Part shown: piece by piece, positions 51,706-64,000 of the stretch | How positions within the stretch are numbered: the stretch's first letter is position 1 | Layout of the letters: every line of letters starts with the position of its first letter | Assembly (NCBI RefSeq): GCF_030815485.1 | Contig: NZ_JAUSWV010000002.1 | Span: 5,828,001 to 5,892,000, forward strand | Source of the DNA: Streptomyces rishiriensis | GTDB taxonomy: Bacteria > Actinomycetota > Actinomycetes > Streptomycetales > Streptomycetaceae | Reading direction: 5' to 3' | Length of the DNA stretch: 64,000 nucleotides | The notes under the pieces: model-generated | Seen by the model: the letters and a program-made list of their open reading frames with translations, nothing else | What the model was told of the DNA's origin: nothing | Databases searched by the model: none | Program-made: the position numbers and the translations under genes

Positions 51706-53370
51706 TCAGGCGACGTTGACGGCCGTCCAGGCGGCCGCGACCGCCTTGTACTCGGTGCTGGTCGAGCCGTACAGCGCCGACGCCGCGCTCAGGGTCGCCG
51801 TGCGGGCGCCCGAGTAGGTGGTCGTCGAGGTCATGTAGGTCGTCAGCGCCTTGTACCAGATCTGGACGGCCTTGGCGCGTCCGATGCCGGTGAGGGTGGA
51901 GCTGTTGTACGTCGGGGAGTTGTAGCTCACCCCGTTGATGGTCCGGCTGCCGCTGCCCTCGCTCAGCAGGAAGAAGAAGTGGTTCGCCGGGCCGGACGAG
52001 TAGTGCACGTCCAGGTTCTTCAGCGAGGACGACCAGTAGTTGGCCGAGCCGCCGTCCTTGCTCGGCTGGTCCATGTAGCGCAGCGGTGTGCCGTCGCCGT
52101 TGATGTTGATCTTCTCGCCGATGAGGTAGTCGCCGACGTCGGAGGAGTTCGCCGCGTAGAACTCGACGGCGGTGCCGAAGATGTCGGAGGTCGCCTCGTT
52201 GAGGCCGCCGGACTCGCCCGAGTAGTTCAGACCCGCCGTGTTGGAGGTGACGCCGTGGGTCATCTCGTGGCCGGCCACGTCCAGGGAGGTCAGCGGGTGG
52301 GTGTTGCCCGAGCCGTCGCCGTAGGTCATGCAGAAGCAGCTGTCGTCCCAGAAGGCGTTCACGTACGCGTTGCCGTAGTGGACGCGGGAGTACGCGGCGA
52401 CGCCGTTGTTCTTGATGCCGCTGCGGCCGAACGTCGACTTGTAGAAGTCCCACGTCGCCTGCGCGCCGTAGGCGGCGTCGACGGCGGCCGTCTGGTCCGT
52501 GGTCGAGCTGGAGGCTGCGCCGGTGCCCCACGTGTCGTCCGCGTCGGTGAACAGGGTGCCCGCCGAGGAAGTGGTGGCGTGCGCCTTGTTGTACGTCTTG
52601 TGGCCGCCGCGGGTGCCGTCGGTCAGCTGGTACGTCGAGCCCGAGAGGGTCGTGCCGAGGGTCACCGTGCCCGAGTAGAGGCTCTTGCCGGTGCCGGTCT
52701 CGATGCCCTGGTACTCGTACAGCTTCTTGCCGGTGGCCGCGTCGGTGATGACGTGCAGCTCGTTCGGGGTGCCGTCGTCCTGGAGACCGCCGACGACCGT
52801 CTCGTAGGCGAGGACCGGCTTGCTGCCGTTGCCGGCCCAGATCACCTTGCGGGGCGCGTCGCTGGCCTCGGTGCTGGCGGAGCCGGCGTCCTTGGCGAGC
52901 GTCAGGGCCTGCTTCTCGGCCTTGGCGGCGGTGACGACGGGGGTGAGCGAGGCGACCTTGATGGTGGTGTTCGTCGCCTTGGTGACGCCCTTGCTCGCGC
53001 CCGCGGCCGACTCGTGGACGACCAGGTCGCCGCCGAGGACCGGCAGACCCGCGTAGGTCCGCTCGTAGCGCGTGTGGACCGTGCCGTCCGCGTCCTTGAC
53101 GACGTCGCGCACGACCAGCTTCTCCTTGACGCCCAGGCCTATCTCCTGCGCCGTCTCGGGCGCGTCGGCCTGCTTGTCCTGGATCAGGGCGGTGCGGGCG
53201 GCCGGGGCCAGCGCGGTGGGCACGGCGAGCGGCGTCGTACTGGTGGCGTCCGCCGGAGTCTGGGCGGCTGCCGTACCGGCGGTCAGGCCGGTGGTGACCA
53301 GGGCTCCGGCCGCGACGGCGGTGGCGATGGCCAGAGAGGTGCGCTTGTGACGCGCGTAGAGGGAGGTCAC
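51706..53370 (-). CDS. Secreted M4 (thermolysin-like) zinc metalloprotease
   Basis: A 554-residue preproenzyme. GTG 53370 follows AAGGAG at five bases. Signal peptide about 1-36; pro-region about 37-225 with FTP and PepSY inhibitor segments; mature catalytic domain from about 227. Zinc site H368-E369-MT-H372 with E392 (GGLNEATSDIFG) and the active-site block SSGPANHFFFLLSEG. Length and order are normal for Streptomyces neutral proteases. A close paralog lies immediately upstream. It has no P-domain. Confidence 0.95.
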   Translation of the reverse strand: MTSLYARHKRTSLAIATAVAAGALVTTGLTAGTAAAQTPADATSTTPLAVPTALAPAARTALIQDKQADAPETAQEIGLGVKEKLVVRDVVKDADGTVHTRYERTYAGLPVLGGDLVVHESAAGASKGVTKATNTTIKVASLTPVVTAAKAEKQALTLAKDAGSASTEASDAPRKVIWAGNGSKPVLAYETVVGGLQDDGTPNELHVITDAATGKKLYEYQGIETGTGKSLYSGTVTLGTTLSGSTYQLTDGTRGGHKTYNKAHATTSSAGTLFTDADDTWGTGAASSSTTDQTAAVDAAYGAQATWDFYKSTFGRSGIKNNGVAAYSRVHYGNAYVNAFWDDSCFCMTYGDGSGNTHPLTSLDVAGHEMTHGVTSNTAGLNYSGESGGLNEATSDIFGTAVEFYAANSSDVGDYLIGEKININGDGTPLRYMDQPSKDGGSANYWSSSLKNLDVHYSSGPANHFFFLLSEGSGSRTINGVSYNSPTYNSSTLTGIGRAKAVQIWYKALTTYMTSTTTYSGARTATLSAASALYGSTSTEYKAVAAAWTAVNVA

Positions 53371-53690
53371 ACAAGCTCCTTGGATGTGGGGGTGCCCGGG
53401 CGGCGTGGGGTGGCTGTCCGTGGCTGCTGTGAAGTTGTGCGGCGGGTGACAGGAAGACTGGCATCAAGGCGCGTACATGTCAGGACCCCGAAGTGATGTT
53501 GGCTGAAAATCAACTGTCGGGTGAACATTGCGGGAATGTAAACGGACTTGACCTGGGTAAAAGGCCAACAGGGCCTGGGTAAGGCAGGGGCAAAAAGCGG
53601 ACGCCGCCCCGGAGGAGTCGAAACTCCGGGACGGCGTCCTGTGCGCTGCCTCTCGGCCGGCCGTAACACGGCCCCTGAGGGGCCTGTGGC
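53371..53690. other. Gap between the two M4 genes: promoter and terminator
   Basis: A 320-bp stretch without a gene. GGACGCCGCCCCGGAG (53599-53614) pairs with CTCCGGGACGGCGTCC (53624-53639) with one mismatch and is followed on the minus strand by GCTTTTT, an intrinsic terminator for the upstream protease gene. A small dyad ACATT-GCGGG-AATGT (53525-53539) lies in the AT-richer promoter region of the downstream protease gene. Confidence 0.75.
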
Positions 53691-55742
53691 CTACGGGAAG
53701 GTCAGCTTCCAGCTGTTGATGTAGCCGGTGTCCTGGGCCGCGTTGTCCTGGACCCGCAACTTCCAGACGCCGTTGGCGACCTCGGAGGAGGCGTTCACGG
53801 TGTACGTGGTGTTGATGTTGTCCGTGCTACCGCCGGTGCCGTATGCCTTCAGCGTGTACGCCGTGCCGTCGGGAGCGAGCAACTGCACCTGGAGGTCGCC
53901 GATGTAGGTGTGGACGATGTCGACCGCCACCGCGAGGTTCGTGGGCGCGTTGCCGGTCCGGCCGGAGACCGTGACCGAGGAGGTGACCGCCGCTCCGTTG
54001 TCCGGAATCGATACGTCGGCGGTGTTCTCGAAGGAGGTGCCGCCGCCGCCCCCGCCGCCGGAACGGGCGCCGACCGCGACGCCGGCCCACGCGTCCTGCA
54101 CCGCCTTGTACTCGGTGGAGGTCGTGCCGTACAGCTCACCGGCCGCCGCCAGCGTGCCGGTGCGGGCCGCCGCGTAGTTGGTGGTCGTGGTGAACTTCGT
54201 GGTCAGCGCGCGGAACCAGATCTTCTCGGCCTTGTCGCGGCCGATTCCGGTGACCGGAAGGCCGTCCGCGGTGGCCGAGTTGTAGGTGACACCGTTGATG
54301 GTCTTGGTGCCGCTGCCCTCCGACAGGAGGTAGAAGAAGTGGTTGGCCGGGCCGGACGAGTAGTGGACGTCGACCGATCCGATCCCCGAGTACCAGCTGT
54401 CCTTCGACGCGCCGTCCTTGCTCGGCTTGTCCATGTACCGCAGCGGCGAGCCGTCGCCGTTGATGTCGATCTCCTCGCCGATGAGGTAGTCGCCGACGTC
54501 GGAGGCGTTCTGGGCGTAGAACTCGACCGAGGTGCCGAAGATGTCCGAGGTCGCCTCGTTGAGGCCGCCGGACTCCCCGCTGTAGTTGAGACCCGCGGTG
54601 TTGGAGGTGACGCCGTGGGTCATCTCGTGACCGGCCACGTCGATGGAGGTCAGCGGGTGGGTGTTGCCCGAGCCGTCGCCGTACGTCATGCAGAAGCAGC
54701 TGTCGGACCAGAACGCGTTGACGTACGCGTTGCCGTAGTGCACGCGGGAGTACGCGCCGACCCCGTCGCCCCTGATGCCGCTGCGACCGTGCACGTTCTT
54801 GTAGTAGTCCCAGGTCAGGGCCGCGCCGTAGTGGGCGTCGGCGCCCGCGGTCTCCAGGTTGGACGCGGCGCCGGTGCCCCAGACGTCGTCGGAGCCCGAG
54901 AAGAGGGTGCCGGTGCCGGACGTGCCCCGGTTGAGGTTGTACGTCTTGTGGCCGCCGCGCGCCCCGTCGGTCAGGTTGTACGTCGACCCCGACTGGGTGG
55001 TGCCGAGGGTCACCTGGCCGCTGTACATGGTGTTGCCGGTGCCGGTCTCGATGCCCTGGTACTCGTACAGCTTCGCGCCGGTGGTGGCGTCGGTGACGAC
55101 GTGCAGCTCGTTCGGGGTGCCGTCCTCCTGGAGACCGCCGACGACCGTCTCGTACGCCAGGACCGGGGTGCCGTTCGCCGCCCAGATCACCTTGCGCGGA
55201 GCGCGGTCGGTGTCCGCCTTCTCGGCGCCGGCGGCCGTGGCGAGGCTGAGCGCCTGCTTCTCCGCCTTGGCCGCGCTGACGGCGGGCGCGAGCGAGGCGA
55301 CCTTGATGGCGGCCCTGGTGGCCTTGGTGACGCTCTCGGTGGCGCCGGACCTCGCGGTCTCGACGACCAGGTCGCCGCCGAGGACCGGGAGGCCGCCGTA
55401 GGTGCGCTCGTAGCGGGTGTGCAGGGTGCCGTCGGCGTCCTTGACGACGTCACGGACGACGAGCGCCTCCTTGGCGTCGAGGCCCAACTCCTTGGCGGTG
55501 GCCGCCTTGCCGGCGTCCGCCTCGCGTATCAGCGCGGCGCGCTGGGCGGGGGTGAGGCGCACCGACTCGGCGCCCGGGTTGGCCTGGCCCGCCGCCTGCG
55601 GTGCCTTCACCGGGGCGGCGGTCGCGGCGCCGGACTGCACGGCGGCGGCGATGAGCGCGGAGACGCCGACGAGGGCGACGGCCGCGGCACGGCGGGAGGT
55701 GCTGTGGGGGGTGCGTCTGCGAGAGGGGCTGCTGCTCAACAC
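53691..55742 (-). CDS. Secreted M4 metalloprotease with C-terminal P-domain
   Basis: A 683-residue preproenzyme. The start is uncertain: GTG 55742, TTG 55739 (six bases after AAGGAG) or GTG 55763. The signal peptide ends near VQSGAATAAP. Pro-region with FTP/PepSY motifs is followed by the catalytic domain with zinc motif HEMTH (H372) and GGLNEATSDIFG. A Gly-run linker (GARSGGGGGGG) leads to a proprotein-convertase P-domain (about 585-683, ADVSIPDNGAAVTSSVTVSG... VDIVHTYIGDLQVQLLAPDGT). The P-domain likely binds substrate or cell-surface polymer. Confidence 0.93.
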   Translation of the reverse strand: MLSSSPSRRRTPHSTSRRAAAVALVGVSALIAAAVQSGAATAAPVKAPQAAGQANPGAESVRLTPAQRAALIREADAGKAATAKELGLDAKEALVVRDVVKDADGTLHTRYERTYGGLPVLGGDLVVETARSGATESVTKATRAAIKVASLAPAVSAAKAEKQALSLATAAGAEKADTDRAPRKVIWAANGTPVLAYETVVGGLQEDGTPNELHVVTDATTGAKLYEYQGIETGTGNTMYSGQVTLGTTQSGSTYNLTDGARGGHKTYNLNRGTSGTGTLFSGSDDVWGTGAASNLETAGADAHYGAALTWDYYKNVHGRSGIRGDGVGAYSRVHYGNAYVNAFWSDSCFCMTYGDGSGNTHPLTSIDVAGHEMTHGVTSNTAGLNYSGESGGLNEATSDIFGTSVEFYAQNASDVGDYLIGEEIDINGDGSPLRYMDKPSKDGASKDSWYSGIGSVDVHYSSGPANHFFYLLSEGSGTKTINGVTYNSATADGLPVTGIGRDKAEKIWFRALTTKFTTTTNYAAARTGTLAAAGELYGTTSTEYKAVQDAWAGVAVGARSGGGGGGGTSFENTADVSIPDNGAAVTSSVTVSGRTGNAPTNLAVAVDIVHTYIGDLQVQLLAPDGTAYTLKAYGTGGSTDNINTTYTVNASSEVANGVWKLRVQDNAAQDTGYINSWKLTFP

Positions 55743-55813
55743 TGACTCCTTCTGCGCGGCCACGGGTCACGCGGCCAGGGGAGACCCGACGGCGGGTGAG
55801 CCGTGCGGGCACG

Positions 55814-55845
55814 ACAAAGGCGGTACGCAGAACAAAGGCGGTACG
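55814..55845. repeat. Direct repeat ACAAAGGCGGTACG x2
   Basis: Two identical 14-bp words at 55814-55827 and 55832-55845 (period 18) in the 290-bp gap upstream of the P-domain protease gene. They could be activator sites. Confidence 0.7.
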
Positions 55846-56032
55846 TGGAGCGGGCTTAGCTGTGGGGTTGCTGTGAACCAGCAGTGGGAAGAGTGGCAGT
55901 GGATTGCGCTATCTGTCAGGAGCGCGTCAGGAAGTTGGCCGGAAACGGTTCGTTGTCCGGTAGTTCATGTTCGGTATGCGGATCCGTGGGCTCCCCGGCG
56001 ACCCGGAAGGGCGGCTCGGAGGGGCGCGGGGC

Positions 56033-57853
56033 CTACGGGGTCCGATCCCTCCCGGTTTCCCGTCCCGCACCGGGCAGGGCCCGGCCGTTCCCGGCCCGCT
56101 CGCCGTGCCACGTCCGCCAGAGCGCCGCGTACGCCCCGCCCGCCGTCACCAACGCGTCGTGCGTGCCGAGTTCGGTGAGACGGCCGTCCTGCATCACCGC
56201 GACCCGGTCCGCGTCGTGCGCGGTGTGCAGACGGTGGGCGATGGCGATGACCGTCCGGCCCCGGAGCACGGCCGCCAGCGCCCGCTCGGTGTGCCGGGCG
56301 GTCGCCGGGTCCAGCAGGGCCGTCGCCTCGTCCAGGATCAGCGTGTGCGGATCGGCCAGCACCACCCGGGCCAGGGCCAGTTGCTGGGCCTGGGAACCGT
56401 CCGTACGGGTGCCGCCGCCGAGTACGGCGTCGAGGCCGCCGGGCAGCTCCCGGACCCAGTCGGCGGCGCCGACCGCGGTCAGCGCCGCCCACAACTGCGT
56501 CTCGTCCGCGGCCGGTTCGGCGATCAGCAGGTTGTCGCGGACCGTGCCGAGGAAGACATGGTGCTCCTGGGTGACGAGCACGACCTGCCGGCGCAGCGTC
56601 TCGGGCGCCAGCTCCGCGACCGGCACTCCGCCCACCGTCACCGTGCCCGCGCTCGGCGCGTCCACGCCCGCGAGCAGCCTGCTCAGCGTGGTCTTGCCCG
56701 CGCCCGACGGGCCGACGACCGCGAGCCGCTCGCCGGGCCGCACCGTCAGATCCACCCCGCGCAGCACCTCGCCGCCGCGTTCGTAGGCGTAGCGCACGCC
56801 CGTCACGTCGATCCGGTCGTCCGCCGGAGCCGGCGCCTCGCCGTCCGGCTCGGCGCGCGGCGCCCGGGCCACGCCCTCCACCCGGGCGAACGAGGCGCCG
56901 CTGCTCTGGAGTTGCTCGACGCGCAGCAGGATCTGGTCCAGCGGTTCGGTGAACTGCCGCAGATACAGCGCGGCCGCCACCACCGCGCCCAGGCTCATCG
57001 CACCCCGCGCGTGCAGTACGCCGCCCAGCAGCAGCACACCCGCCACCGGCAGCGAGTACGACACCTCGATCACCGGGAAGAACACCGTGCGCAGGTGGAG
57101 GGTCCGAAAGCGGGTGCGGCGCGAGATCTCCAGCGCGTCCCGGCAGGCCGCCGACCGCCGTTCCCGAAGCCGGAACGCCTCGACCGTGCGCGCCCCGGAC
57201 GCGGTGGCGGCGACGATCTCGGCGACCTCGGAGGTGGCCGCGCCCTCGGCGAGGTAGGCCGTACGCGCCCGCCGCAGATACCAGCGCAGCGCGAACCAGA
57301 TCGGGGTCAGCCCCAGCACTCCGATCGCCCCGAGCAGCGGGTCGATCACGAATACCGCGCCGAGCGTGAACAGCGCCTGGACCGTGCAGACCAGCAGCTC
57401 GGGCCCGGCGTCCCGCAGGGTGGTGCCCACGGCCGCCACGTCGGCGGTGCCGCGGGTCGTCAGATCGCCGGTGCCGGCCCGCTCCACCACCGACGCGGGC
57501 AGCGCGAGCGCCCGCCCGACGAACTCCTCCCGCACCCGCGCCAGCGTCCGCTCACCGAAGCGGTGCCCCGCGTACCGGGCCCAGCGGGCCAGCAGCAGCT
57601 GCGCGCACGCGCAGGCCAGAATGGCCGCCGCCAGCCGGTCCACGGCCCCGGTGCCGTGCCCGGCCCGCACCTCGTCGATGATCCGGCCCAGCAGCCATGG
57701 CCCGGCCAGCCCGGCCCCGGCGGCGAGCACGTTCAGGGCGAGCGCACCGGCGAAGGCCCGCCGGTCGGCCCGCAGCAGCCGGACCGCCGCCCGGCGCACG
57801 TCCCCGGGCGCGGCGATCGGCAGACGTCCCGACGCCCCCTCCACCACTGTCAC
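56033..57853 (-). CDS. ABC exporter half-transporter with degenerate signature motif
   Basis: A 606-residue TMD-NBD fusion starting GTG 57853, overlapping the partner's stop. Six membrane helices in about 35-310. The NBD has normal Walker A (GPSGAGKTTL) and Walker B with catalytic Glu (TLILDEATALLD) and H-loop (AHRLH), but the LSGGQ signature is replaced by DGSQAQQ. Its partner (57850-59646) has the opposite defects. Together they form a heterodimer with one working ATP site. Substrate unknown. Confidence 0.93.
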   Translation of the reverse strand: MTVVEGASGRLPIAAPGDVRRAAVRLLRADRRAFAGALALNVLAAGAGLAGPWLLGRIIDEVRAGHGTGAVDRLAAAILACACAQLLLARWARYAGHRFGERTLARVREEFVGRALALPASVVERAGTGDLTTRGTADVAAVGTTLRDAGPELLVCTVQALFTLGAVFVIDPLLGAIGVLGLTPIWFALRWYLRRARTAYLAEGAATSEVAEIVAATASGARTVEAFRLRERRSAACRDALEISRRTRFRTLHLRTVFFPVIEVSYSLPVAGVLLLGGVLHARGAMSLGAVVAAALYLRQFTEPLDQILLRVEQLQSSGASFARVEGVARAPRAEPDGEAPAPADDRIDVTGVRYAYERGGEVLRGVDLTVRPGERLAVVGPSGAGKTTLSRLLAGVDAPSAGTVTVGGVPVAELAPETLRRQVVLVTQEHHVFLGTVRDNLLIAEPAADETQLWAALTAVGAADWVRELPGGLDAVLGGGTRTDGSQAQQLALARVVLADPHTLILDEATALLDPATARHTERALAAVLRGRTVIAIAHRLHTAHDADRVAVMQDGRLTELGTHDALVTAGGAYAALWRTWHGERAGNGRALPGAGRETGRDRTP

Positions 57854-59646
57854 CGCACAACCTCCCCGGCGCCGGCGCCCGTGGCCGAACCCGGGCCCGT
57901 GTCCCCACCCGCGGCAGCGTCACCCGGACCGGGATCGCCGTCCTCGGCCTCCCGGGCCACCAGGGCCCGGTACCCCGGTTCCCGCTCCAGCAGGTCGCGG
58001 TGGCGGCCGGTCGCCGTCACCTTGCCGTCGACCAGGAAGTGGACGGTGTCCGCCTGGGCGAGGAGCAACGGGGAGGTGGTGGTCACCACCGTGGTCCGGC
58101 CGGTGCGGGCCGCGCGCAGTCGCTGGGCGACCGCCGCCTCCGTGTGCGCGTCGAGCGCCGACGTCGGCTCGACGGCCAGCAGCACCCCGGGGTCGGCCAG
58201 CAACGCCCGTACCAGCCGCACCCGTTGCCGCTGGCCCCCGGAAAGACTGCGTCCCTGCGCCGTCACGGGTGACTCCAGCCCCTCCGGCAGGCCCTGCACG
58301 ATGTCGTCGGCCGCCGCCGCCCACACCGCCCGTCCGACGTCCGACGGGGAGGGCGCCCGCCGTCCGCCCACCACCTCGCGCAGACTTCCGGCGAACAGGT
58401 CGGCCTCGTTGTCGGCGACCAGGATCCGCTCCCTGACCTGGTCCAGGGGGACGGCGTCCAGCCGTACCCCGCCCCAGGTGGCGTCCGAGGGGCCGTAGCG
58501 GCCCAGCCGGTCCACGACGGCGGTCACCTCGGCGTGCCGCGCGCCGACCAGCGCGGTCAGCCGGCCCGGGGCCACCCGCACCCCCGACACGGGGTCGTGC
58601 AGCACCGACGGCTCCACGGGCGCGTCGGCGACACCGGCGCCGGGGGCGGTGTCGGGATCCGGCTCCAGGCACAGCAGCCGTACGACGCGCCGGGCCGCCA
58701 CCACACCCCTGCTGAGCTGGTAGCCCATCTCGACGAGGAACGCCACCGGGCCGATCAGGACCGCGACATAGCCGTACACCGACACCAACTCGCCGACCGT
58801 CAGGTCCCCCTGGGCGGCCAGCCGGGCCGCCAGCCAGGTCACCACGGCGAGGAAGAGCGTCGGCAGACCCACGCCCAGCGCCTGCATCCAGCTGGTGACC
58901 GCGCCGACCCGGTAGCCCTGCGCCCGCAGCCGCTGCGAGTCGCGGTCGAAGGAGGCCGCGAACAGCTCCTTGCCGCCGAGCCCGTTGAGCACCCGCAGAC
59001 CGCCCGCGAGATCGCCGATCCGCGCGGTGAGCACTCCCTGCCGCTCGCGGTACTCGGTCTCGGTGCCCTGCAACCGCGCCATCAGCGGTCCGACCAGCAC
59101 CGCGACCACCGGCATCCCCAGCAGCACGATCACCGCCAGCAGCGGCGACACCGACAGCAGCAGCCCGGCGACGAAGACGTAGACGACGACCGAGCCGACG
59201 CCCGGCCCGATCACCGTCAGCGCGCCCGCGATCGTCTGCACGTCGCTCACCCCGATGGTGACGACCTCCGCGGCTCCCGCCTGTCGCGGCAGCGCGGCCC
59301 CGAGCCGTACCGTCTGCGCGAGGACGACCTTGGTGGTGCGGAAGTACGCGTCCATGCGCACCCGGGTCATCGTGCGGTGCCGCATGATGCTCACCCAGGC
59401 GTTGAGCGCACCCACGGCGAACAGGGCCGCCGTCCAGCCGGTGAGCGCCGCCGTGTCACCGGGTTCCAGACCGTCGTCCACCGCCCTGGACAACAGATAC
59501 GGCGCCGTCGCCAGCAGCACCATCCAGACGCTGGCCAGCACCGCCCCGGCCAGCGACCGCCACGGCTGGCAGCGCACCAGCCACGCCAGGTACGCCCAGC
59601 CGCCGCGGCGGTCGGGCGTGCCGGGATCCTCGTACGCGTCGATCAT
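57850..59646 (-). CDS. ABC exporter half-transporter with degenerate Walker motifs
   Basis: A 598-residue TMD-NBD fusion from ATG 59646. The NBD lacks a real Walker A (LVGARHAEVTAVV has no GK[ST]) and its Walker B is LLAVEPTSALD, without the Asp before the catalytic Glu. The signature LSGGQRQR is intact. The H-loop is missing too (TTTSPLLLAQ in place of AHR). It therefore cannot hydrolyse ATP at its own Walker site but supplies the signature to its partner's site. Confidence 0.93.
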   Translation of the reverse strand: MIDAYEDPGTPDRRGGWAYLAWLVRCQPWRSLAGAVLASVWMVLLATAPYLLSRAVDDGLEPGDTAALTGWTAALFAVGALNAWVSIMRHRTMTRVRMDAYFRTTKVVLAQTVRLGAALPRQAGAAEVVTIGVSDVQTIAGALTVIGPGVGSVVVYVFVAGLLLSVSPLLAVIVLLGMPVVAVLVGPLMARLQGTETEYRERQGVLTARIGDLAGGLRVLNGLGGKELFAASFDRDSQRLRAQGYRVGAVTSWMQALGVGLPTLFLAVVTWLAARLAAQGDLTVGELVSVYGYVAVLIGPVAFLVEMGYQLSRGVVAARRVVRLLCLEPDPDTAPGAGVADAPVEPSVLHDPVSGVRVAPGRLTALVGARHAEVTAVVDRLGRYGPSDATWGGVRLDAVPLDQVRERILVADNEADLFAGSLREVVGGRRAPSPSDVGRAVWAAAADDIVQGLPEGLESPVTAQGRSLSGGQRQRVRLVRALLADPGVLLAVEPTSALDAHTEAAVAQRLRAARTGRTTVVTTTSPLLLAQADTVHFLVDGKVTATGRHRDLLEREPGYRALVAREAEDGDPGPGDAAAGGDTGPGSATGAGAGEVVR

Positions 59647-59709
59647 CCGCTCGTCCCTCCGGCCCCCGTGGTCCCCCTGCGTTCCCGGTCCCCCCGCGTT
59701 CCCGGACGT

Positions 59710-61566
59710 TCACGCCAGACTGTCCCGCCAGGCCCGGTGCAGGTCCGCGAACCGGCCGGTGCCCGCGACCAGTGCGGCCGGGCTGCCGTCCTCCACGATC
59801 CGCCCGTGCTCCATGACCAGGACCCGGTCGGCGATCTCCACGGTCGACAGCCGGTGCGCGATCACCACCGCCGTACGGCCCTTCAGCACCGTCGCCATCG
59901 CCGCCTGCACGGCCCGCTCGCCCGGGATGTCGAGCGAGCTGGTCGCCTCGTCGAGGATCAGCACCGCCGGGTCGGCGAGCAACGCCCTTGCGAACGCGAC
60001 GAGTTGACGCTGCCCGGCGGAGATACGGCCACCGCGCTTGCGTACGTCGGTGTCGTAGCCGTCGGGCAGGGCGCTGATGAACTCGTGCGCGCCGATCGCC
60101 TTCGCCGCCCGCTCGATCTCCTCCCGGCTCGCGTCCGGCCGCCCGATGGCGATGTTCTCGGCGACCGTGCCGGAGAACAGGAACGCCTCCTGGGTCACCA
60201 TGACCACCCCGCGCCGCAGCTCGGGCACGGCCAGCTCGCGCAGGTCGACCCCGTCCAGCAGCACCCGACCCTCGGACGGGTCGTAGAAGCGGGCGAGCAG
60301 CTTGGCCAGCGTGGACTTGCCCGCGCCGGTCGAGCCGACCACGGCGACGGTCTGCCCGGCGGGAAGGACCAGGTCGAAGCGGGGCAGGATCTCGCCCCCC
60401 GTGCGGTAACCGAAGGAGACCCCGTCGAAGAGGACCTCCCGGCCGGGCAGTTCGCCCTCGAGCGCCGGGAGTTCCCGCGGCGCCGACGGCTCCGGCACGG
60501 ACGGCGCCTGTGCCAGCAGCCCCGCGATCTTCTCCAGCGAGGCGGCCGCCGACTGGTAGGAGTTGAGGAACATGCCGAGCCGGTCGATCGGGTCGTACAG
60601 CCGCCGCAGGTACAGCACGGCGGCCGCCAGCACCCCCAGCTCCAGCGAGCCGTCGGCCACCCGGGTGGCGCCCCACAGCACGATCACCGCGACCGCCGTG
60701 TTGGCGACCAGCCGCGATCCGACGACGTACCGGGCCATCTCCAGAAGCGCGTTGCCGTTGATCCGTTCGTGCCGCCGGTTCAGGACGCGGAAGTCGGCGT
60801 CGTTGACGTCCTCGCGGCGGAAGGCGCGCACCGGCCGGATGCCGTTCATCGTCTCCACGAACCTCACGATCACGGCCGCGATCGCGGTGGAGCGGGACCG
60901 GAACACCTGCCCGGCGCGCCGCTGGTAGATCCTGACGAGGAGGTACAGCGGCACGAAGGAGGCCACCGCGACGGCTCCGAGGCCCAGGTCCAGCCAGAGC
61001 AGCATCGCCGAGATGTAGAGGAAGGACAGGATCACCGTCACGAGTTCCTGGAGACCTTCGCTGAGCAGCTCGCGCAACGCCTCCACGTCCGTGGTGGAGC
61101 GGGAGATCAGCCGGCCCGAGGTGTAGCGCTCGTGGAAGTCGAGGCTCAGCGCCTGCGCGTGCCGGAAGATCCGGCCGCGCAGATCGAGCAGCGCGTCCTG
61201 GTTGACGCGGGCGGAGGTGATCAGGAACGCGTACTGCAGTCCGCCGGAGGCCAGCGCGCACAGCAGATAGCCGACGCCCACCACGATCAGCGGCCCGTGG
61301 TCGTCGGCCCGCAACGCCGGTACGGCGCGGTCGATGGCGTACGCCACCAGCAGCGGCCCTGCCTGCACGGCAGCCTGCTGGAGCAGCAGCAGGAGCGAGG
61401 TGAACGCGACCCGCGCCCGCATCGGCTCGAGCAGCGAACGCAGCAGCGCGCCCGTGGCGCCGGGCGGGGTGGGCAGGACGTCCTTGTCGAAGGGGTCGTC
61501 GGCGGTCCGCGGGGCGACCTCGCAGGCGTCGTCGGTGACGGGGGAAGCGGTGGTGGGGGCGGTCAT
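59710..61566 (-). CDS. ABC exporter half-transporter (consensus ATP-site donor)
   Basis: A 618-residue TMD-NBD fusion from ATG 61566, overlapping the upstream partner by 4 bases. Walker A GSTGAGKSTL, Walker B VLILDEATSSLD with catalytic Glu, H-loop AHRLS, but signature ISAGQ. Transmembrane part about 50-340 with the coupling region RSTTDVEALRELLSEGLQE. Partner of the 61563-63404 protein. Substrate unknown; the family exports drugs, lipids or peptides. Confidence 0.93.
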   Translation of the reverse strand: MTAPTTASPVTDDACEVAPRTADDPFDKDVLPTPPGATGALLRSLLEPMRARVAFTSLLLLLQQAAVQAGPLLVAYAIDRAVPALRADDHGPLIVVGVGYLLCALASGGLQYAFLITSARVNQDALLDLRGRIFRHAQALSLDFHERYTSGRLISRSTTDVEALRELLSEGLQELVTVILSFLYISAMLLWLDLGLGAVAVASFVPLYLLVRIYQRRAGQVFRSRSTAIAAVIVRFVETMNGIRPVRAFRREDVNDADFRVLNRRHERINGNALLEMARYVVGSRLVANTAVAVIVLWGATRVADGSLELGVLAAAVLYLRRLYDPIDRLGMFLNSYQSAAASLEKIAGLLAQAPSVPEPSAPRELPALEGELPGREVLFDGVSFGYRTGGEILPRFDLVLPAGQTVAVVGSTGAGKSTLAKLLARFYDPSEGRVLLDGVDLRELAVPELRRGVVMVTQEAFLFSGTVAENIAIGRPDASREEIERAAKAIGAHEFISALPDGYDTDVRKRGGRISAGQRQLVAFARALLADPAVLILDEATSSLDIPGERAVQAAMATVLKGRTAVVIAHRLSTVEIADRVLVMEHGRIVEDGSPAALVAGTGRFADLHRAWRDSLA

Positions 61567-63404
61567 CGGCGGTCGGCCTCCTGTTCCCCGAAGCGGGTTC
61601 CGGACGGTGTCCCGGAAGGCTCTGCGGACGGTGATCCGGACGGCTCTCCGGACATGAGGTGGGCGTACTCGGCATTGCTGCGCAGCAGTTCGTGATGGGT
61701 GCCCACGGCGGTGACACGCCCGTCGGACAGCAGGGCGACACGGTCGGCGAGGAGCACGGTGGACGGCCGGTGCGCCACGATCAGCGCGGTGGTGTCGGCG
61801 AGGACCTGCCGCAGCGCGGCCTCCACGGCGGCCTCGGTGTGCACGTCCAGCGCGGACAGCGGGTCGTCCAGGACGAGGAACCCGGGCTGCCCGACGACGG
61901 CTCTGGCCAGCGCGAGACGCTGCCGCTGGCCGCCGGAGAGGCTGAGGCCCTGCTCGCCGACCTGCGTGTCGACACCCTGCGGCAGCGCGTGCGCGAAGTC
62001 CGCCTGTGCCACACCCAGCGCCCGTTCCAGCTCCACGGCGCCCGCACCGTCCGCCGCCCCCATCAGGACGTTGTCCCCGACGCTCGCGGAGAACAGGGTC
62101 GGCTCCTCGAAGGCGACGGCGACCCGTGAGCGCAGCTCCTCGCGGGACATCGCCGTGATGTCCTCACCGTCGAGCGTGATGCGGCCGGCGGTCACCTCGT
62201 GCAGCCGGGGGACGAGCGCCGTGAGCGTGGTCTTCCCGCTGCCGGTCGCCCCGACCAGCGCCATGGACTCGCCGGGCCGGATGTGCAGGTCCACGCCGTC
62301 GAGGGTGGGCGGGGAGTCGGGGGAGGCGTCGGGATAGCGGAAGGTCACGCCGTCGAACCGCAGACCGCCGTCGGCCGCCACGGTCCGCGCACCACGGCCG
62401 TCGGGCTCCTCGGGCGGCTCGTCCATCACCTCGAAGTAGCGCTCGGTCGCCGTCGCCGCCTCCTGGCTCATCGCCAGCAGGAAGCCGATCGAGTCCACCG
62501 GCCACCGCAGCGCGAGCGCCGTGGACAGGAAGGCGACCAGGGTGCCCGCCGACAGCTCGCCGTCCGCCACCTGCACCGAGCCGAGCACCAGCGCGGCGCC
62601 GATCGCCACCTCCGGGAGCGTCACGATGACGGCCCAGATCGTCGCCAGCAGCCGCGCCTTGCGCAGCTCCGTGCCGCGCAGCGTCGACGACAGCTCCCGG
62701 AAGGCCCGCGCCTGGCTCTGGTGCCGCCCGAAGCCCTTGATGATCCTGATCCCGAGGACGCTCTCCTCGACCACCGTCGTCAGGTCCCCGGCCTGGTCCT
62801 GGGCGCGCCGCGCGACGACCGAGTACCGGTTCTCGAAGTACACGCACATCACGACGACGGGGACGGCCGGCCCGAGGATGACCAGCCCGAGCGTCCAGTC
62901 CTGGAGCAGCATGATGACGACGCCGAAGAGGATCGTCACCGAGTTGACCAGCAGGAACGTCAGCGGGAAGGCGAGGAACATGCGCAGCAGCCCCAGATCG
63001 GCCGTCGCCCGGGACAGCAGCTGTCCCGAGGGCCACCGGTCGTGGAAGGCCACCGGCAGCCGCTGGAGCCGCCCGTAGAGATCCGCGCGCATCTCCGCCT
63101 CGACGTGCGACAGCGGACGCGCCACCATCCAGCGCCGCAACCCGAACAGCAGCGCCTCCGCGAACCCGAGCAGCAGCAGGCAGAGCGCGCCCAGCCAGAC
63201 CCCGGCCGTGTCCCGGTCGGCCACGGGGCCGTCCACCATCCACTTCAGGACGAGCGGGATGACCAGCCCCGTACAGGAGGCGACCACGGCGACGAAGGCG
63301 GCCGCGAACAGCCGTATCCGGATGGGACGGACGTACGGCCACAGACGCAGCAGGGAGCGTACGGCGGAGCGGTTTCGGGAAGCGGTTGCAGGTGTCCTGG
63401 GCAT
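61563..63404 (-). CDS. ABC exporter half-transporter with Asp in place of catalytic Glu
   Basis: A 613-residue TMD-NBD fusion. ATG 63404 (MPRTPATASRNRSAVRSLL) is chosen as it gives the usual family length; the longer frame upstream is not protein-like. Walker A GATGSGKTTL, signature LSLSGGQRQR and H-loop AHRPS are intact, but Walker B reads FLVLDDPLSALD, with Asp replacing the catalytic Glu. That is the pattern of the degenerate site in heterodimeric exporters such as TM287/288. First gene of its pair. Confidence 0.93.
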   Translation of the reverse strand: MPRTPATASRNRSAVRSLLRLWPYVRPIRIRLFAAAFVAVVASCTGLVIPLVLKWMVDGPVADRDTAGVWLGALCLLLLGFAEALLFGLRRWMVARPLSHVEAEMRADLYGRLQRLPVAFHDRWPSGQLLSRATADLGLLRMFLAFPLTFLLVNSVTILFGVVIMLLQDWTLGLVILGPAVPVVVMCVYFENRYSVVARRAQDQAGDLTTVVEESVLGIRIIKGFGRHQSQARAFRELSSTLRGTELRKARLLATIWAVIVTLPEVAIGAALVLGSVQVADGELSAGTLVAFLSTALALRWPVDSIGFLLAMSQEAATATERYFEVMDEPPEEPDGRGARTVAADGGLRFDGVTFRYPDASPDSPPTLDGVDLHIRPGESMALVGATGSGKTTLTALVPRLHEVTAGRITLDGEDITAMSREELRSRVAVAFEEPTLFSASVGDNVLMGAADGAGAVELERALGVAQADFAHALPQGVDTQVGEQGLSLSGGQRQRLALARAVVGQPGFLVLDDPLSALDVHTEAAVEAALRQVLADTTALIVAHRPSTVLLADRVALLSDGRVTAVGTHHELLRSNAEYAHLMSGEPSGSPSAEPSGTPSGTRFGEQEADRR

Positions 63405-63726
63405 CACCGCGAGCCTACGGACCGGCGCTGACGACGCCCACCGAGTTTTGGCCGGGCCGGGCTCGGCCGCTGGTCCTACGACCTGCGTGTTCGAGGGGTC
63501 GTACCAGGACAGCGGCGGATCGGCCGACACCCGTTCGGGCGAGCCGGCCGAGGTGCCGGCCGCCGTCTCCCCCGCAGTCGCCGTACGGCGGCGGCCCGGC
63601 GGGCAGCTCCGGCCGGCCGGGGACGAGACCGGCCTGTGCACGGGAGTCGGCGGCCGGATCGCCTACGTGGTCGGTCTTCGGCCTCCTGGGGGTGCCGCGC
63701 GGAGCGCGTGGGCCCGCGACGTCGCC
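63405..63726. other. 322-bp gap, no supported gene
   Basis: GC-rich sequence between two minus-strand genes. Frames exist on both strands but none has a start with a ribosome site or a recognisable motif. One plus frame reads TCVFEGSYQDSGGSADT, which could be a relic. I annotate nothing. Confidence 0.5.
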
Positions 63727-64000
63727 TCACCCCACCACCCGCAGCAGCAGAACCGCCCGCCCGGGCACCGTCACCGGCATCCCCGCCGGATGCGTCACCC
63801 CCGGCGCCTCCGCCTGCTCCTCGCGCGACGTGTCGACGACCACCTCGTACCGCTCCGCCCAGGGCGCCCCCGGCAGGACGAAGTTCACCGGCCGGTCCCC
63901 GGCGTGCAGAACGGCGAGGAAGCTGTCGTCGGTGATCAGGGCCCCCCGCTCGTCCCGGCCGGGAATGTCCCGACCGGACAGGTACATCCCGAGGGTCGCC
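63727..64000 (-). CDS. glgX: Glycogen debranching enzyme, C-terminal end only
   Basis: The last 90 residues of a GlgX/TreX-type isoamylase run in from the right edge: ATLGMYLSGRDIPGRDERG, then DDSFLAVLHAGDRPVNFVLPG, WAERYEVVVDTSREEQAEA and PVTVPGRAVLLLRVV, the C-terminal beta-sandwich. The catalytic barrel lies outside the window, so the enzyme is inferred from this domain alone. It would remove alpha-1,6 branches of the glucan handled by the glg genes at 33-45 kb. Confidence 0.75.
   Translation of the reverse strand, partial: ATLGMYLSGRDIPGRDERGALITDDSFLAVLHAGDRPVNFVLPGAPWAERYEVVVDTSREEQAEAPGVTHPAGMPVTVPGRAVLLLRVVG

Follow-up and report, generated by a model that had tools for sequence, protein, structure and literature searches.

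Several ATP-binding cassette (ABC) exporters, including TM287/288, TmrAB, BmrCD and TAP, are built from two half-transporters, which together form one consensus and one degenerate composite ATP site. The gene pair considered here encodes two half-transporters of the same fold, subunit A (P0001) and subunit B (P0002). It is located at 56033-59646 on the minus strand of a 64,000-nucleotide stretch of the Streptomyces rishiriensis genome (the window), which confirms the coordinates given by an earlier sequence-only reading. Judging by its motifs, the pair probably encodes an obligate heterodimeric type IV ABC exporter, in which one ATPase site works and the second interface is remodelled and free of nucleotide. 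The difference from the TM287/288 class is that the A-loop, P-loop and Q-loop are also gone from the degenerate side of the window pair.

The following statements on described systems refer to the available excerpts of the cited publications. In the heterodimeric class, named changes affect the Walker B glutamate, the signature and the H-loop, and ATP is still bound (PMC7756269). The fungal transporter Pdr5 is more strongly altered: according to published accounts, one of its sites departs from the consensus in every motif (PMC7756269) or in all but one, and it is counted with the most extreme case (PMC8421411). The changes comprise Cys for the Walker A lysine, Asn for Glu, Tyr for His and an LNVEQ signature (PMC7756269), and the degenerate site was seen with ATP bound (PMC8421411). 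In ABCG5/G8, Arg occupies the position of the Walker A lysine (PMC7756269). Escherichia coli CydDC has Leu in place of the A-loop tyrosine, and nucleotide is still found in its degenerate site (PMC10374445). In inward-facing IrtAB with AMP-PNP, nucleotide density was observed in IrtA only (PMC10246721), so occupancy of one side only has a precedent. The sufficiency of a single catalytic site has been argued for P-glycoprotein (PMC4846820).

The window pair resembles Pdr5 in carrying substitutions in almost every motif of one of its composite sites. In contrast to Pdr5, where the nucleotide-binding domain (NBD) precedes the transmembrane domain (TMD) in one polypeptide, it has the TMD-NBD order in two genes and does not belong to the pleiotropic drug resistance (PDR) type; moreover, the P-loop and A-loop are gone altogether from its subunit B. 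Degenerate ABC sites are thus well known, and what differs here is the loss of P-loop and A-loop in a TMD-NBD exporter. Whether an exporter needs ATP at both sites, and what role degenerate sites play, is debated, and that debate is confounded by the fact that the known degenerate sites keep ATP, as far as the excerpts describe them. If the interpretation given here is true, two bound nucleotides would not be needed for the exporter power stroke, and a natural family without the pocket, with pairs in many genera, would allow one to ask what a single ATP can do.

Gene Pair and Sequence Sets

On the minus strand, to which all coordinates of the pair refer, the gene for B (57850-59646; 598 amino acids) is followed by the gene for A (56033-57853; 606 amino acids). 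The stop codon of B and the likely start codon of A share a four-nucleotide overlap, GTGA (57850-57853). According to Pfam, both products are half-transporters with an N-terminal ABC_membrane domain (residues 37-305 in A, 43-301 in B) followed by ABC_tran, which is the arrangement of type IV (formerly type I) exporters. ABC_tran is complete in A (residues 364-512, profile positions 1-137 of 137). In B it covers residues 404-496 and profile positions 57-137 of 137 (30.8 bits, cut-off 25), and the first 56 profile positions are unmatched.

Motifs were read in two sets of relatives. Close orthologs were the best 80 of 244 relatives in the genome collection, giving 81 rows for B and 78 for A; the motif tables were compiled without L001, L004-L008 and matches below 250 bits (L numbers designate loci), and include the paralog L002 in both, its A being cut. 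B is present in all 80 loci and A adjoins it in 77; in the three loci without an adjacent A, B ends 306 bases or less from the contig end. An in-frame four-nucleotide overlap of the B stop codon with a possible A start codon occurs in 75 of the 77.

The divergent set was composed of an earlier set and 40 loci of the class sample taken whole (B matched at 1e-93 or better; A and B both present in 40/40), which gave 62 A and 62 B subunits. A and B were labelled by similarity to P0001 and P0002 in the earlier set and by the best match among those rows for the 40 class loci. Omitted from the earlier set were L106 (the window itself), two non-exporter ATPases (L144 7280-8500 and L146 1145-3121) and weak matches, the latter including exporter-like frames of the window's own genome (L100 1473-4484, L101 1653-3908, L105 1844-4264). 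L096 and L104 are long frames apparently holding two halves, and one half of each was used. Among the divergent A subunits, L115 is cut by its contig, and L174 leaves the family sequence before the H-loop, its His being uncounted. The mean identity of B over 21 divergent pairs is about 41%.

Complementary Motif Loss

Subunit A is predicted to provide that half of the live site which binds ATP and carries the catalytic residues. Its intact Walker A, GPSGAGKTT (residues 381-389; 56687-56713), has G381, G384, G386, K387 and T389 invariant in the 78 ortholog rows, and the three glycines and the lysine are retained in 62/62 divergent A subunits. The Q-loop glutamine Q429 (56567-56569) is present in every row of both sets (78 and 62). 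Walker B, LILDE (residues 505-509; 56327-56341), has invariant D508 and E509 in the 78 rows and keeps Asp and Glu in 61/61 readable divergent subunits; the H-loop histidine H540 (56234-56236) is found in 78/78 ortholog rows and 60/60 readable divergent ones. The signature, which faces the dead site, is lost. TDGSQAQQ (residues 484-491; 56381-56404) replaces LSGGQRQR in register, LSGGQ becoming TDGSQ with the final Gln kept and AQQ following. A489 and Q490 are the sole invariant residues of this stretch in the ortholog rows. SGGQ is absent from all 78 of them. Among the 61 divergent A subunits that are readable here, an intact signature never occurs, and 52 share AQQ after the signature position.

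Subunit B would contribute to the live site only the trans elements, i.e., signature and D-loop. Its signature LSGGQRQR (residues 468-475; 58222-58245) is intact, with S469-R475 invariant in the 81 ortholog rows and SGG in 62/62 divergent B subunits. The D-loop Asp 499 (in SALD; 58150-58152) is kept in every row of both sets. The former Walker A of B, GARHAEVTA (residues 368-376; 58519-58545), keeps only the first glycine and holds no GxxxxGK[ST]. It is variable, with zero invariant residues in the 81 rows, none of which has a P-loop motif; the lysine occurs in 0/62 divergent B subunits and 0/81 ortholog rows, the second and third P-loop glycines in 0/62 and the first in 3/62, and Ala stands at the lysine position in 42/62. 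None of the 62 divergent B subunits aligns any residue to the A-loop tyrosine position, which falls in an alignment gap. Asn 413 (58408-58410) occupies the place of the Q-loop glutamine, where Asn, His or Pro is found in 81/81 ortholog rows and Gln in 1/62 divergent B subunits. The Walker B remnant LLAVE (residues 489-493; 58168-58182) has Val for Asp and keeps Glu; among the ortholog rows, position 492 is never Asp and position 493 always Glu (81/81). The former H-loop, TTTSPLLL (residues 522-529; 58060-58083), lacks His, as do all 62 divergent B subunits; S525, P526, L527 and L529 are invariant in the 81 rows, and Ser-Pro recurs in 60/62. The possibility that the P-loop has moved elsewhere in B was rejected, since G....GK[ST] occurs nowhere in the 62 B sequences.

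An A-A dimer would be without a signature and a B-B dimer without a P-loop, so only A together with B builds a complete site, and exactly one. In having two different subunits with complementary losses, the pair agrees with the degenerate-site heterodimers. As a yardstick, 17 other exporter halves were inspected, and Walker A and a recognizable signature were found in all of them.

The sequence-only reading had described A as having good Walker A and B motifs with DGSQAQQ instead of LSGGQ, and B as having LSGGQ without the Walker A lysine, the Walker B Asp and the H-loop; both descriptions agree with the letters, which in B read GARHAEVTA, LLAVEP and TTTSP at these three motifs. The strict complementarity that it proposed is old, being constant in the 62 divergent pairs and in the close orthologs, and its view that degeneration exceeds that of typical heterodimeric exporters holds, though Pdr5 is a published precedent. 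Its statement that one site is intact and the other lost at every motif is true of most motifs and goes too far for two: B keeps E493 at the place of the catalytic glutamate, and A still has its D-loop, which is turned toward the dead site. The loss of the A-loop stretch and of the Q-loop Gln in B was absent from that reading.

Among the orthologs, conservation within B is 0.95 for the Q-loop region, 0.96 for the Walker B region and 0.91 for the H-loop region, as against an NBD mean of 0.82; the former P-loop, at 0.76, lies below this mean. The signature region of A reaches 0.93, as against 0.91 for the NBD of A. The sequences indicate that the dead site is remodelled and not freely drifting. 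Chance or sequencing error was rejected as an origin of the pattern, as close orthologs and the 62 divergent pairs agree.

Structure Models

The model of B (predicted local distance difference test (pLDDT) 82.3, predicted TM-score (pTM) 0.67) is a complete exporter half. Its best Foldseek match is TM287/288 (E 1.5e-25, TM-scores 0.63/0.65, root-mean-square deviation (rmsd) 7.3). By VIA, CydDC (Z 27.8 over 545 residues) and TmrAB (Z 27.6 over 549) match it with an rmsd of about 7. The NBD of B superimposes on that of ComA over 221 residues (rmsd 2.0, Z 26.4; VIA), and from this match B is predicted to keep the ABC ATPase fold. The model of A is weaker (pLDDT 75.7, the NBD partly below 50), and structural conclusions were limited to B.

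Ancestry and Spread of the Family

In a tree of the membrane domains only, which is therefore independent of the motifs in question, 22 A rows form one clade (Shimodaira-Hasegawa-like approximate likelihood ratio test (SH-aLRT) 99*) and 21 B rows another (98*). Each subunit type is of single origin. The A and B subclades mostly match; L139 is placed differently among the A and among the B rows, with no starred support. The tree was made by a quick method, shows long branches for several of the other exporters and omits the short B of L144. Distances among A subunits correlate with those among B subunits (r 0.97 over 21 pairs, with the incomplete pairs L144 and L148 omitted), and none of 10000 permutations gave a value as high. 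Gene overlap, adjacency, this correlation and the mostly matching trees are indirect signs that the two subunits may associate in a complex.

In the phylum sample, a B match at E <= 1e-55 was found in 22/396 genomes. Of these, 10 belong to the window's genus, counting the window's own genome. In the class sample, 173 of 394 genomes, from 62 of 137 genera, have a B-like match at E <= 1e-48. Within the window's genus, 118/121 genomes have an A match at E <= 1e-80 and 108/121 a B match at E <= 1e-45. These counts may include a few strangers, since the cut-offs come close to the strongest non-family scores in the window's own genome (1.4e-77 for A; 5.7e-42 for B, as compared with 1e-45 and 1e-48) and the weak matches were mostly uninspected. 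The search covered class and phylum genome samples, and other phyla through the plasmid collection alone, where 10 records matched at E <= 1e-30 (Streptomyces, 8; Nonomuraea, 1; Arthrobacter, 1). The window's genome holds two further such pairs (L093 and L094).

No description of the A/B family was found in searches of the open-licence PMC literature, subscription papers being outside this coverage, and this negative is weak evidence of novelty.

Proposed Mechanism and Alternative Explanations

The live site would be formed by Walker A, Walker B, the Q-loop and the H-loop of A, with LSGGQ and the D-loop from B closing it. The interface on the other side, without the A-loop, P-loop, Q-loop and H-loop of B and without the signature of A, would probably be free of nucleotide and could act as a hinge of direct protein-protein contact. 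In each cycle, the binding and hydrolysis of one ATP at the live site could then drive switching between inward- and outward-facing states, and transport is presumed to be in the direction of export. We incline, by a small margin, to the broader view that a class-wide family gave up one ATP site permanently, with a remodelled interface (AQQ on A, Ser-Pro on B) and transport driven by one ATP in each cycle.

Alternatively, the pair could be an ordinary asymmetric exporter, whose degenerate site stably holds ATP that is not hydrolyzed, by means of a remodelled pocket, as in Pdr5 and other degenerate exporters. The degenerate sites of Pdr5 and CydDC keep ATP or an analogue in spite of the substituted Walker A lysine and A-loop tyrosine, respectively, according to the excerpts cited above; furthermore, B retains an acid at the Glu position, and several of the altered dead-site motifs are conserved. 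Against such a pocket stand the 62 divergent B subunits, where the Walker A lysine, the second and third P-loop glycines and the A-loop residue are never found and the first glycine only three times, and the window's own B, which fails to match ABC_tran profile positions 1-56. The sequence thus argues against ATP binding at the degenerate site, and a stably occupied one appears unlikely here. It is much less probable that B serves as a pseudo-ATPase for regulation or scaffolding, with A working mainly alone or with another partner. Candidate partners are there, as the window's genome codes for numerous further exporter halves whose signature is intact, and a second A-type gene stands beside the pair in two genomes; yet A and B are adjacent wherever the contig permits judging and nearly always overlap, their trees mostly match, and B retains exactly those trans elements that are missing from A. 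The decay of the gene pair toward a pseudogene has hardly any probability. The catalytic residues are absent from B, and in one genome (L148) both genes are truncated across their junction, whereas the two genes of the window are open reading frames, and the same motifs are kept or lost throughout the 62 divergent pairs and the close orthologs.

Several points weigh against an exporter with one working site and an empty second interface, the reading preferred here. Motif loss is no proof of an empty site, since Pdr5 binds ATP despite many changed motifs. The former P-loop of B is partly constrained, position 373 being acidic in 81/81 ortholog rows and positions 370 and 371 being Arg and Pro in 73/81 each, and on account of these recurring residues it may have a role. 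Glu or Asp occupies the catalytic-glutamate position in all 62 divergent B subunits. The loss of the Walker B Asp, which the sequence-only reading had described correctly for the window pair, is not family-wide, since 20 of the 62 retain it and 42 have lost it. The value of r 0.97 shows co-inheritance and is not an independent proof of contact, because paralogs and species are mixed. The monomer models are uninformative on the dimer, and relatives were collected by similarity to B, which possibly favoured degenerate ones.

Two peculiar gene arrangements were observed among the relatives. At L148 (3641-5606; genome G246, of the window's genus), B is matched over its first 199 residues only and A over about its last 463, probably as a result of a deletion across the B/A junction. 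The order A'-B-A, with a second A-like gene directly upstream of the pair, is found in G450 (C1, near 7000000) and G483 (C1, near 548000; both positions are match coordinates).

Genomic Neighbourhood and Possible Substrates

Upstream of the pair, and also on the minus strand, lie two further exporter halves. P0003 (59710-61566) has intact Walker A and B and the signature ISAGQ; P0004 (61563-63404; start codon uncertain), its likely partner, has LSGGQ and the Walker B LDD. They resemble the A/B pair as adjacent halves with an atypical signature in one and an altered Walker B in the other. Unlike in the A/B pair, Walker A, the Walker B Asp and the H-loop His are kept in both, i.e., degeneration is mild. 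In 60/80 loci P0003 lies less than 400 bases upstream of the pair in the same orientation, and in 4 it is further upstream; 3 loci have it at another place or in the opposite orientation, and in 13 (2 of them with short flanks) it is missing from the examined stretch. These positions show that the two exporter pairs are often linked yet separable.

No siderophore genes were recognized beside the pair when the open reading frames of 52000-64000 were read by eye. Some relatives adjoin such genes: IucA/IucC synthetases (L094); a formyltransferase, a Lys/Orn oxygenase and a binding protein (L152); a nonribosomal peptide synthetase (NRPS) and a binding protein (L147); and FecCD, an ABC ATPase and a formyltransferase (L146). 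At L135, ketosynthase and thioesterase genes adjoin the pair. The one or two neighbours seen at each of L093, L136, L137, L138, L140 and L145 belong to no telling family. The siderophore-linked loci L094, L146, L147 and L152 form a deep subclade, whose A subunits have AEAGS for the SALD region and whose B subunits have HDP for the Walker B DE-P; the D-loop Asp of A is lost (Gly) in 4/61 divergent A subunits, all of this subclade.

Among described exporters, CchGI (SCO0491, SCO0493), encoded in the coelichelin gene cluster of Streptomyces coelicolor, is the presumed coelichelin exporter according to an excerpt of PMC12161575; a possible likeness to CchG/CchI is that one deep subclade of the A/B family adjoins siderophore genes. 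Exporters of SapB/AmfS-type peptides were also considered for the window pair, the AmfS exporter family being merely listed in the available part of PMC3924187. Among exporters controlled by WblC, SCO1147 and SCO5451 are named (PMC7157823), and SCO5451 is listed as an ABC transporter (PMC6637917); from these excerpts they could not be mapped to the window pair. Because some relatives adjoin siderophore and polyketide genes, we would guess that the substrate of the window pair is a specialized metabolite or a siderophore-like compound.

Downstream of the pair, at 51706-55763 on the minus strand, two tandem precursors resembling secreted metalloproteases, with HEMTH, were noted by eye, the second with an extra C-terminal stretch. 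In L138 and L145, which belong to distantly related genomes (groups f53 and f5), the pair apparently stands beside a guaA-like gene, as judged by eye from its C-terminal letters.

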